A DNA stretch of 16,555 bases from an uncultured bacterium (lineage in GTDB: Bacteria; CALINM01). Position numbers and translations under genes: made by a program. The stretch spans positions 1-16,555 of the forward strand of contig CALINM010000215.1 of the NCBI GenBank assembly GCA_938045315.1. The letters are read 5' to 3'. The stretch's first letter is position 1. Each line of letters starts with the position of its first letter. Below the pieces are notes generated by a model. It was not told the origin of the DNA and searched no databases. It saw only the letters and a list, made by a program, of their open reading frames with translations. Shown here piece by piece: positions 1-7,256 of this stretch.

Positions 1-24
1 GTCCGCTACCTGAAAAATCGGGGC
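1..24 (-). other. etfA: In-frame continuation of etfA beyond its TAA stop
   Basis: Read on the minus strand from position 24 to 1, in the same frame as the etfA codons that end at the TAA (27-25), these bases encode APIFQVAD. In the EtfA family the residues after NKDP are E-A-P-I-F-Q-V-A-D, so this is normal EtfA coding sequence with the Glu codon replaced by TAA. The frame is still open at the window edge, where the last roughly 20 residues of the FAD domain would follow. The family match is from memory; the in-frame reading is seen directly. Confidence 0.88.
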
Positions 25-915
25 TTAAGGATCTTTATTTATGGCAACAATGACTTTGGAGTCTTTCATTCCGGCCAAATGCTGAATGGCACCAGAAATA
101 CCGCAAGCAATATAAATCTTTGGTTTTACAGTTTTTCCAGTCTGGCCTACCTGATGGTCATATGATATCCAGCCAGAATCAACCACAGCTCTACTTGCAC
201 CGACAGCACCCCCTAAAGTATCAGCCAACTCTTGTATAATTTTTAAGTTATCTGGTCCACCAATCCCTCTGCCTGCACTTACAATAAAATCAGCATCCTG
301 AAGATTTATCTTACCCGTTTCTTTCATTACTTCCAGTACTCTTACTGGTATTTCTTCTTCTTTAATATCAACTGATAATTCTACGTACTCACCTGTATTA
401 TCAGCTTTCTCAGGCATGGGAAACGCTTTTGGCCTTACAGAAAGAATTTTAACACCACTGTCATTAAATTTACCCCAGTAAAGAAGGTTACCCGCAAAGC
501 AGGGCCTTATAAAATTTAGTCCTCCTTCAGCTTTTTCCACATCAATTACATCAGCAATTACGCCAGCTTTTAGTTTTGCCCCTAAGTAAGGTGCAAAATC
601 TCTTCCATTACCTGTACCGGGAACAAGCACATAATCAATATCTCCACTGGAATTAATTAAATTTGCTATAGTTTTCACAAAAGGCTGAGTCCTGTAGTAT
701 TTAAAAGAGGGAGATTTACCACCGTAAACCTTTTTTGCCCCATAATTAAACAGTTCTTTCGCAAACTCCTGGGGTTCTTCCGCCAAGACAACGGCAGATA
801 TTGTCCCATTTCCTTCCAGTTCTTTAATTTTGTTTGCCAGGCTCAAAACTTCAATGGAACTTTTTTTAATTTTATTTTCATCTATTTCAACTACACAAAG
901 AATTTCTTTAGCCAT
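25..915 (-). CDS. etfA: Electron transfer flavoprotein alpha subunit, apparently truncated by an in-frame stop
   Basis: EtfA is the FAD-carrying subunit of the ETF heterodimer and takes electrons from acyl-CoA dehydrogenases in the cytoplasm. The 296-residue frame has the N-terminal alpha/beta domain and most of the C-terminal FAD domain: SAGRGIGG (about 213-220, with Arg216), GASRAVVDSGW (from 239), GQTGKT (257-262) and GISGAIQHLAGM (272-283). It ends at INKDP. Full-length family members run about 25-30 residues further, and the missing tail includes the Asp-Leu pair that contacts FAD in human ETF (D318/L319). The start is ATG at 915 behind GGAGG, 12 bp after etfB, as expected for co-translated partners. 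The product as written would lack a helix and FAD contacts, so it may be non-functional unless the stop is a sequencing error or is bypassed. Family identity is certain; functional state is not. Confidence 0.95.
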   Translation of the reverse strand: MAKEILCVVEIDENKIKKSSIEVLSLANKIKELEGNGTISAVVLAEEPQEFAKELFNYGAKKVYGGKSPSFKYYRTQPFVKTIANLINSSGDIDYVLVPGTGNGRDFAPYLGAKLKAGVIADVIDVEKAEGGLNFIRPCFAGNLLYWGKFNDSGVKILSVRPKAFPMPEKADNTGEYVELSVDIKEEEIPVRVLEVMKETGKINLQDADFIVSAGRGIGGPDNLKIIQELADTLGGAVGASRAVVDSGWISYDHQVGQTGKTVKPKIYIACGISGAIQHLAGMKDSKVIVAINKDP

Positions 916-927
916 ATTATGCCTCCA

Positions 928-1707
928 TTAGAAGATTTTTTGTGAAAAAAGACGCTCTAAAAGCTGATTTACCGCTTCTTCTGTTGTACCCTGGAGTATT
1001 TCTCCGCCCGATCTTGGTGGAGGTGGTGATACTTTAACCATCGACTCCTTAGCAAAAATGCTATCATCAAGTGCTAAATCAGCTTTAGTTAAAACGGGAA
1101 TGGGCACCTTTGCAGCTTTTCTAAGACCCATCAAAGAGGGATATCGAGGTTTATTTATATCTTTTACAACAGTTATTAATGCTGGCAAGGTTGAAGAAGC
1201 AACTTCTTTTCCACCTTCTAAAAGCCTCTCCACGACAATTTTTTTGTCTCCCGCTGATAATTCTCTAACTTTTGAAACATATGTTAATACAGGAATATCT
1301 AAAAATGCAGCAACTTGTGGCCCCACGTGAGCAGTATCCCCACCAAGTGCTAATTTACCTGCAATTATAAGATCAGCACCACCAATTTTTTCTATTGCTT
1401 TTGCTAATATATGACTTGTTAATAGTGTGTCTGCTCCTTTGAAAGCAGGGTCCATAACATGGTATACCTGATCAACTCCCATAGCAAGTGCAGTCCTCAA
1501 AACTTCTGTTGCCTGATCATCCCCCATTGTTATTATAACAACCTCACCACCTAACTTTTCTTTCCACTGCAAGCACTCTTCGATAACGAACTCATCAAAG
1601 GGATTTAAAATTCTTGGCACTCCATCCAGTTTAAGTTCAGGTCCCTGATTTTGAGGTTTGATCTCAGCAGGATCATAAACCTGTTTAATTAATCCAACAA
1701 ATCGCAT
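928..1707 (-). CDS. etfB: Electron transfer flavoprotein beta subunit
   Basis: EtfB pairs with EtfA and binds AMP in ordinary ETFs, or a second FAD in electron-bifurcating ETFs. The 259-residue length is normal. Visible family marks are NPFDEFVIEE (35-44), the RTALAMGVD segment (71-79) and GKLALGGDTAHVGP (117-130), the nucleotide-binding loop. This loop is of the GDTAxVGP type seen in anaerobic and Bcd-associated ETFs, not the DDDxNQTGQ type of mitochondrial and proteobacterial ETFs. The C-terminal arm begins with a proline run (about residues 228-231) and ends in an amphipathic tail. The ATG at 1707 follows AGGAGG. The gene lies 12 bp after the acyl-CoA dehydrogenase and 12 bp before etfA, so the three are probably expressed as a set. 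Confidence 0.96.
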   Translation of the reverse strand: MRFVGLIKQVYDPAEIKPQNQGPELKLDGVPRILNPFDEFVIEECLQWKEKLGGEVVIITMGDDQATEVLRTALAMGVDQVYHVMDPAFKGADTLLTSHILAKAIEKIGGADLIIAGKLALGGDTAHVGPQVAAFLDIPVLTYVSKVRELSAGDKKIVVERLLEGGKEVASSTLPALITVVKDINKPRYPSLMGLRKAAKVPIPVLTKADLALDDSIFAKESMVKVSPPPPRSGGEILQGTTEEAVNQLLERLFSQKIF

Positions 1708-1719
1708 ATAATTTTCCTC

Positions 1720-2859
1720 CTATCTTAAAATTTGATTTGCTATTACTAATCTTTGGATCTCAGAAGTGCCCTCATAAATCTCCGTTATTTTTGCATCCCT
1801 AAAAAATCTTTCCACAGGATACTCTTTACTATAACCATACCCACCATGTATTTGAATAGCCTTAGTGGTAGCTCTCATGGCAACTTCTGAAGAATAAACT
1901 TTTGCCATTGATGCTTCTTTTGTAAACGATTGCTTAGAATCTTTTAGAAATGCTGCCCTTCTGGTTAAAAGCCTTGCTGCATCAATCTCTGTAGCCATAT
2001 CAGCAAGCATCCATTGTATCGCTTGAAATTCAGCTATGGGTCTGCCAAATTGAATTCTCTCCTTGGCAAATTTAACCGCTTCTTCAAAGGCCCCCCTTGC
2101 AATACCCACAGCCTGTGCTGCAATCCCTATTCTTCCACAATCAAGGGTGTACATGGCTATCTTAAATCCTTCTCCCTCTTTTCCCAGTAGCTGACTTGCA
2201 GGAATTCTTACATCTTGAAGAACAAGTTCAGCAGTACCAGAGGCATTAATACCAAGTTTGTGCTCAATTTTACCCACTGAAAAACCTGGTGTCCCTTTCT
2301 CAACTATAAAACAAGAAATTCCTTTATGTTTAAGACTTTTATCTGTGGAAGCAAAAATAAGAGCTATATCTGCATGTGTAGCATTTGTTATAAAAATTTT
2401 ACTGCCATTCAAAATGTAATAATCACCATCTTTTACTGCGGTGGTTTGAATACTACCGGCATCGGAGCCCGCATTAGGTTCTGTCAATCCAAAGCAACCT
2501 AATTTTTTACCCGATGCAAGGGGTGTTAGAAATTTTTGTTTCTGCTCTTCATTGCCAAATTTTAAAAGTGGTGCACAAACAAGTGAATTGTTTACAGACA
2601 TAATGACTGATGTACTACCACAAAACCTTGCTATTTCCTCAATGGCTATTGTATAACAAACGTAACTTAAATTTGCACCGCCATATTCCTCTGGTATATC
2701 AACTCCCATAAGTCCCAATTCACCCATTTTCTTCACTAACTCAACAGGAAAATCGCCTGTTTCATCTAATTTTGATGCTAAAGGTTTAACCTCTTTTTCT
2801 GCAAAATTCCTTGCCATTTCTTGCATCATTCTTTCTTCTTCGTTCAACAAAAAATCCAT
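1720..2859 (-). CDS. Acyl-CoA dehydrogenase, short-chain/butyryl-CoA type
   Basis: This FAD enzyme oxidises acyl-CoA to trans-2-enoyl-CoA and passes electrons to ETF. It is 379 residues, the usual length for short-chain acyl-CoA dehydrogenases. The flavin signature GCFGLTEPNAGSD (121-133) and the C-terminal signature QIHGGYGYSKEYPVERFFRD are present. The expected catalytic base is Glu363 in YEGTSEIQ (362-369), the position used by butyryl- and short/medium-chain enzymes rather than the alternative Glu of isovaleryl/long-chain enzymes. The ATG at 2859 follows AGGAGGAA. It directly precedes etfB and etfA, its probable electron acceptor. Chain-length preference, and whether it runs towards oxidation or (with a bifurcating ETF) reduction, cannot be read from the sequence. 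Confidence 0.95.
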   Translation of the reverse strand: MDFLLNEEERMMQEMARNFAEKEVKPLASKLDETGDFPVELVKKMGELGLMGVDIPEEYGGANLSYVCYTIAIEEIARFCGSTSVIMSVNNSLVCAPLLKFGNEEQKQKFLTPLASGKKLGCFGLTEPNAGSDAGSIQTTAVKDGDYYILNGSKIFITNATHADIALIFASTDKSLKHKGISCFIVEKGTPGFSVGKIEHKLGINASGTAELVLQDVRIPASQLLGKEGEGFKIAMYTLDCGRIGIAAQAVGIARGAFEEAVKFAKERIQFGRPIAEFQAIQWMLADMATEIDAARLLTRRAAFLKDSKQSFTKEASMAKVYSSEVAMRATTKAIQIHGGYGYSKEYPVERFFRDAKITEIYEGTSEIQRLVIANQILR

Positions 2860-4761: not shown

Positions 4762-5937
4762 CTATTTTTCAACAATCATTGCTATCCCCATTCCCCCACC
4801 AATACACAGTGTGGCAAGACCATATTTTGATCCCCTTTTTTCCATCTCATAAAGAAGGGTCGTTAAAATCCTTGCTCCTGAAGCACCAATAGGATGCCCT
4901 AATGCAATAGCACCACCATTTACATTGGTTATATCCCTGTTAAGCCCTAACTCCTTTATAACTGTAAGTGCTTGAACAGCAAATGCTTCATTTGCTTCTA
5001 TTAAATTTATATCTGAAAGGTTTAACCCTGCTTTTGAGAGAGCTTTTTTTACAGCCCCAACAGGTCCACAGCCCATAACCTTAGGATCCACTCCTGCTTC
5101 TGCGTATGATCTTACATATGCAAGGGGTTTTTTACCCAATTTTTTTGCAAAGCTCTCACTTACTAATACCAGAGCAGAAGCTGCATCATTGATGCCCGAT
5201 GAATTACCCGCTGTTACTGTTCCATCTTTTTTGAAAGCTGGCTTTAATGAAGATAAGGCTTCTAATGTGGTTCCAAAACGGGGGTGCTCATCTGTATCAA
5301 ACAGCTTTTCTTCTTTTTTGACCTTTATTTTTACCGGGATTATTTCATCTTTGAATTTGCCTTCTTTTATTGCCCTCTCCGCTCTTTTTTGGCTTTCTAA
5401 GGCATATTCATCCTGTTCAAGTCTTGAAATATTGTATTTTTCTGCAAGATTTTCTGCTGTGATACCCATGTGGTATTGATTAAAGGCATCTAACAACCCA
5501 TCATAAATCATTGAATCAAGAGCTTCCACATTACCCATTCTGGCTCCAAATCTTGCTTGTTGAAGAAGGTATGGTGCTCTACTCATATTTTCCATCCCAC
5601 CACACACAACAACCTGTCTATCTCCAGTCATAATTGCCTGAGCTCCCAGAGCAACACTTTTAAGACCTGAACCACATACCTTATTTACTGTAAAAGCAGG
5701 TATCTCTTCACTAAGTCCAGCAAAAATACTCGCCTGTCTCGCTGGATTCTGGCCTAACCCAGCTTGCAGGACACACCCCATAATAACTTCATCTACATCT
5801 TTTTTATCAATACCGGCCCTTATAATCGCCTCTTTTATTACAATGCTACCCAGCTCCTGTGCTGAAATATCTTTTAAGGCACACCCAAATGTACCTATCG
5901 GTGTTCTAACTGCACTCAATATTGCTACTCTTTCCAT
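4762..5937 (-). CDS. Acetyl-CoA acetyltransferase / 3-ketoacyl-CoA thiolase (second of the tandem pair)
   Basis: Thiolase II family: cleaves 3-ketoacyl-CoA with CoA to acetyl-CoA and a shortened acyl-CoA, or condenses two acetyl-CoA. The 391 residues align well with the biosynthetic thiolase of Zoogloea. Nucleophile Cys88 lies in NKVCGSG, His348 in [16 protein letters not shown], and Cys378 in LCIGGGMG. The MG-x-GP substrate loop ([12 protein letters not shown]) and NEAFA are canonical. The ATG at 5937 follows AGGAG. It resembles its upstream neighbour throughout, as a tandem duplication would, but keeps the standard active-site loops, so it is the better candidate for ordinary acetoacetyl-CoA thiolysis. 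Chain length is not predictable. Confidence 0.95.
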
Positions 5938-6071
5938 ATTAATCTCCTGATTTTTTATTTTCTAATGCTAATACATCTGTCTTTTTTAATAACCTGTACC
6001 AGTGATTTAGAGCCCCCTATTTCCTCCAAATTCACAACCTTAATTTACAAGCCAAACTACCCTTTACTCTT
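5938..6071 (-). other. 134-bp spacer between the two thiolase genes
   Basis: This is the longest gap in the window. I see no terminator, no clear promoter and no stable hairpin. A 26-codon frame starting at a GTG on the minus strand has only a weak upstream ribosome site and no recognisable content, so I do not call it a gene. It may simply be the remnant junction of a thiolase duplication. Confidence 0.35.
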
Positions 6072-7256
6072 CTATGACATCAAATTTTCTACAATCATTG
6101 ATACGGCTTCGCCACCACCCAGGCAAAGAGATGCCATTCCATATTTTCCACCCCTATCTCTAAGAATATAAAGAAGTGTTGTAAGCAACCTCGCACCTGA
6201 TGCACCAATAGGATGCCCCAGAGAAATCGCACTTCCCCTTATATTTACCTTTTCTGGATTAATTCCAAGCTCTCTTATCACCGCAATAGAAGATGCTGCA
6301 AACGCATCATTTATCTCATGAAAAGCTATATCTTTTTCTTCTAAGCCAGCTTTTTTAAGGCATTTTGGTATGCTTTTTATAGGCGCCACAAGAACCCACA
6401 TGGGCTCCCATGCTCCTGCACATTGAGCTATAACTTTAGCCATGGGTTTTAGTCCCAGCTCCTCTGCTTTCTCTTTAGCCATTAAAACTACCGCAGCAGC
6501 TCCATCACTTATTTTTGAAGCATTGCCTGCTGTAACTGTCCCATCCTTACTAAAAGCCGGTTTTAATGCATTTAACGATTCTAAAGAAGTATCCCTATAA
6601 ATCTCATCCACAACAAACTTTTTGGGCTCTCCTTTTTTTTGAGGAACAATTATTTCACATATTTCATCTTTAAAGTAACCCTTTTCAATGCTCTCTTTTG
6701 CCCTTTGATAGCTCATAAAGGCATAATTATCCTGATCTTCCCTTGTAACTTTGTATTTTTTAGCAACCTCATCTGCAGTATTTCCCATATGCATATTATG
6801 ATAAGCTTCCCATAATCCATCTAATATCATGGCATCATAAACCTGTACATTCCCCATTCTCGCACCACCACGCATTTTATCCATGAGATAGGGAGCCCTT
6901 GTCATATTTTCCATTCCACCAGCAACAATTATGTCTGCATCACCACACTGAATCGCCTGTGCAGCAAGCATAACTGCTTTAAGACCCGACCCACAAACTT
7001 TATTCACAGTAAAACATTCAACTGTATTTGGAAGACCAGCCTTTAACGCAGCCTGTCTTGCTGGATTTTGACCAAGACCAGCCTGAATTACACAGCCCAT
7101 TATAACCTCATTAACTTCATCGTTTTTTATATTTGCTCGTTCAACAGCATTTTTAATAGCTATAGCACCAAGTTCAGGCGCTGAAAAGGATGACAAACTC
7201 CCTTCAAATGCCCCTATAGCTGTTCTAACCGCGCTTACTATAACTGCTTCTCTCAT
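6072..7256 (-). CDS. Acetyl-CoA acetyltransferase-family thiolase with a divergent substrate loop (first of the tandem pair)
   Basis: A 394-residue thiolase with all three catalytic residues in place: Cys88 (NKVCGSG), His348 ([12 protein letters not shown]) and Cys378 (LCLGGGEA). It departs from the family in two places. The loop normally reading VDPxxMGxGP is [11 protein letters not shown] (282-292), and the usual NEAFA is NDAFA (316-320). The first loop lines the acyl pocket in thiolase structures, so a different 3-ketoacyl substrate from its neighbour is likely (inference). It starts with ATG at 7256, three bases after merR, and its Shine-Dalgarno AAGGAG is formed by the last codons of merR, so translation is probably coupled. 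It is the first enzyme gene of the unit. Confidence 0.93.

Follow-up and report, generated by a model that had tools for sequence, protein, structure and literature searches.

The window, that is, the whole stretch of DNA that was analysed (16,555 nucleotides), corresponds to one entire contig, C215 (16,555 of 16,555 bases), of a fragmented metagenome draft. The draft genome comprises 1.86 Mb in 244 contigs and is ~92% complete. At the left end of the window lies etfA (positions 25 to 915, minus strand), which encodes the alpha subunit of electron transfer flavoprotein (ETF) and reads as 296 amino acids up to its stop; the contig lacks the 3' end of the gene. Upstream of etfA are the intact genes of the ETF beta subunit, etfB (928 to 1707, minus strand), and of an acyl-CoA dehydrogenase (1720 to 2859, minus strand). 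The intact cluster also includes genes for an enoyl-CoA hydratase and acyl-CoA ligases, together with a putative 3-hydroxyacyl-CoA dehydrogenase, two putative thiolases, and the putative permeases and ATPases of a branched-chain amino-acid type ABC transporter, all named by sequence. The thiolase genes form a tandem pair (window 4762-7256) in this beta-oxidation cluster. A previous interpretation of the letters alone (hereafter, the sequence-only reading) had described etfB, the dehydrogenase, and the rest of the operon as intact, a description borne out by the open reading frames and the domain scan.

The product of etfA carries both domains of the EtfA family (PF00766 and PF01012; human ETFA, PDB 1EFV/1T9G). 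In a Pfam profile scan, PF00766 scored 131.5 bits and PF01012 109.9 bits, well above the respective cut-offs of 27 and 26.7. The FAD-domain motif GQTGKTV..YIACGISGAIQH..AINKDP is present, and, as expected of the family, etfB and an acyl-CoA dehydrogenase gene adjoin. By these criteria of homology, the gene is EtfA. Unlike in other members of the family, translation of the stored sequence ends at the residue equivalent to human E304, and ~30 C-terminal residues are either missing or unassembled.

Translation of the minus strand from window position 600 to 1 ends in VIVAINKDP, followed by a TAA codon (window 27-25, minus strand) and, in frame, by APIFQVAD, exactly as the sequence-only reading had it. 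The eight codons beyond the stop (positions 1 to 24, minus strand: GCC CCG ATT TTT CAG GTA GCG GAC) constitute the whole remainder, as only 24 bases separate the TAA from the raw contig end. Their resemblance to the family peptide is far beyond chance, which marks the continuation as homologous on sequence grounds. Numbered along 1t9g chain R (333 residues), the stop maps to E304 of human ETF-alpha, and D318 and L319 lie beyond it. The claim that truncation would remove the counterparts of these two residues thus holds. D318 and L319 are taken here to contact FAD.

Relatives, paralogs, and the missing continuation

The residue at the stop site was compared in 52 relatives, all of which have a sense codon there and none a stop. 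Glu (21) and Asp (17) together account for 38 of the 52, and the remaining relatives have one of eight further residues (K 3, N 2, S 2, Q 2, H 2, C 1, A 1, and R 1). Judged from this alignment, Glu is common at the site but not strictly conserved. The sequence-only reading had proposed that a conserved Glu codon was converted from GAA to TAA. An ancestral GAA is plausible, given that both paralogs in the genome carry GAA at the site, but with Glu in 21 of 52 relatives the word "conserved" is too strong. In 15 of the 52, the codon at the site is one step from TAA. The distance from the site to the stop is 28-37 residues in 52 of 52 relatives, and this tail includes the counterparts of D318 and L319. 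As the tail is universal, a functional truncation would be unprecedented in the 52-relative sample.

The genome contains two further etfA genes, which answers the question of whether another copy exists. One, on contig C55, is full-length and encodes 395 amino acids, including an N-terminal part that appears ferredoxin-like by its cysteine motifs. The other, on contig C170 (L004; 2817-3009), consists of the 3' end only, as its contig ends within the conserved FAD-domain motif. Downstream of it are genes for an acyl-CoA dehydrogenase, a cobalamin adenosyltransferase-like protein, and a methylmalonyl-CoA mutase-like protein. The C170 fragment was considered as the missing continuation of the window's etfA and rejected: it is only 80% identical at the DNA level over 114 bases at the window end, and it belongs to a different etfA that is followed by another acyl-CoA dehydrogenase.

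The continuation of the gene is absent from the assembly. A 21-base probe from the tip, allowed up to 3 mismatches, matched only itself in the genome, and no EtfA tails were found in the genome besides those of the two paralogs. In a collection of contigs from other genomes, the best match to etfA was 47% identical, and an etfA search of viral contigs gave no match. A search of 386 genomes for a donor of the tip was uninformative: it gave no exact match, one hit with two mismatches, and a further hit in the order of that genome.

Codon usage at the contig ends

The eight codons that follow the stop are atypical both for the contig and for the genome. Their score is z = -3.9 when the contig's own codon usage is the reference, and only 2 of 5128 eight-codon windows from the 16 genes of C215 are equally extreme. 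With 102 readable contigs of the genome as the reference, z is about -3.5, and equally extreme values occur in 0.24% of windows. (The later statistics omit about one fifth of the contigs, which read as N.) The eight codons that precede the stop are ordinary (z = +0.5), as are the matching codons of the two paralogs (z = +0.7 and -0.4). The break in codon usage therefore coincides with the stop. This test was devised after the tip had been seen.

The same measure was applied to other contig ends of the assembly. Tips at z <= -2.9 number 3 among 78 coding contig ends, against 0.14 expected from inner windows; removal of the C215 tip, which prompted the test, leaves an excess of 2 among 77. This independent excess of odd tips is suggestive only. 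At one of them (L069, on contig C4; 3679-3706), the codons of a gltD-like frame (VVVIGGGDTGADCVGTAI) become GC-rich and atypical over the final ~28 bases, at a conserved GGDTGADCVGTA motif. The contig of the third odd tip, L169, is atypical at either end. Stops in outward frames are not generally enriched towards the contig ends: the last 30 bases hold 4, against ~2.5 per 30-base bin further in. As a separate observation, the shift at the gltD-like tip resembles that at the C215 tip.

One contig pair shares an exact end overlap of 141 bases, and nearly all other ends share none. The value 141 is the largest k in a commonly used MEGAHIT list. Contigs that end without overlap have been found to have lower coverage and are probably broken for lack of reads (PMC10914622).

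Explanations for the TAA codon

The TAA is most likely an artefact of the contig tip and otherwise an ordinary nonsense mutation. The sequence-only reading had listed a fresh inactivating mutation, a tolerated truncation, read-through, and a base-call error without choosing among them. The location of the stop right at the tip of the contig, the foreign-looking codons, and the absent continuation favour error, and we consider it probable that an erroneous or chimeric tip explains the stop. Where a tip rests on few reads, an uncorrected error or a chimeric extension is to be expected. We infer both the fault in the tip and its origin. It might contain a simple base error in sequence supported by few reads. 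Alternatively, ~24-28 bases from the etfA of another organism might have been attached within a conserved part of the gene, leaving a mismatch at the seam. In either case, the organism's true etfA would probably run on with a sense codon at the site.

The tip shares several features with the contig-end errors and chimeric joins described for short-read metagenomes, including a change in the last tens of bases, a conserved stretch, a shift in composition, and a fragmented draft whose ends mostly lack overlap (PMC10914622). Unlike those cases, the C215 tip keeps the correct peptide. This speaks against an artefact, as a tip that still encodes the exact family peptide can have at most one "wrong" base. 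Additionally, a clean k-mer join alone would not create a mismatch at the seam, and the lack of an outward-frame stop excess makes a high error rate at the tips somewhat less likely.

The main rival to a faulty tip is a genuine nonsense allele of recent origin in etfA, present in the whole population or in one strain, which we regard as rather unlikely. Such an allele needs no exotic step: apart from the single stop, frame and operon are intact, 15 of the 52 relatives are one step from TAA at the site, and the genome holds another full-length EtfA on C55 as well as the end of a third on C170. However, the mutation would have had to strike the last 27 bases of the contig by chance, codon usage breaks exactly at the stop, and the decay would have to be very fresh, with no second disabling change. 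Two further explanations accept the stop but retain function, and each is very improbable. A truncated EtfA that ends at NKDP and still works would be consistent with the retention of N300 (human numbering) and with the undamaged remainder of the gene, but the family peptide is still encoded past the stop, the D318/L319 counterparts would be lost, and every relative keeps the 28-37 residues that follow the site. Read-through or reassignment of TAA to give full-length EtfA fares no better. The frame is open over the 24 available bases past the stop, with no other support, whereas the homologous genes in the genome carry GAA and TAA is the commonest terminator, closing 304 of 534 long open reading frames in a genome sample and, within the window, 9 of the 15 genes that terminate normally. 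Reassignment is excluded by this ordinary use of TAA as a stop. Where amino acids are known to be inserted at stops, the codon involved is TGA or TAG. There is very little chance that the stop is real within an intact fatty-acid oxidation operon, with either efficient TAA read-through to full-length EtfA or a tail-less EtfA. Of the options previously listed, error is thus favoured, tolerated truncation is opposed by the universal tail, and read-through is unlikely.

The case is mainly a caution against reading biology into a change within the final tens of bases of a draft contig when no reads support it. A real stop would amount to an ordinary nonsense allele affecting one of the three ETF gene sets, of local interest for the metabolism of a little-sampled phylum. 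Such an allele would cost the FAD domain ~30 C-terminal residues and probably render this ETF inactive, and the genome's other ETFs may partly compensate.

Placement of the contig in the genome

C215 has a GC content of 36.4%, compared with a contig mean of 32.9% (sd 1.9), which places it at the 96th percentile among readable contigs. Its tetranucleotide profile is near the edge of the genome's contigs and still within their spread (rank 51 of 60). The two other genomes of the phylum that were compared gave no close ortholog of its etfA or of its periplasmic binding protein, and for etfA none was found in the genus or family. C215 might represent an accessory operon or have been misbinned. Either way, the verdict on the stop stands, since the codon break is no weaker when measured by the contig's own usage.
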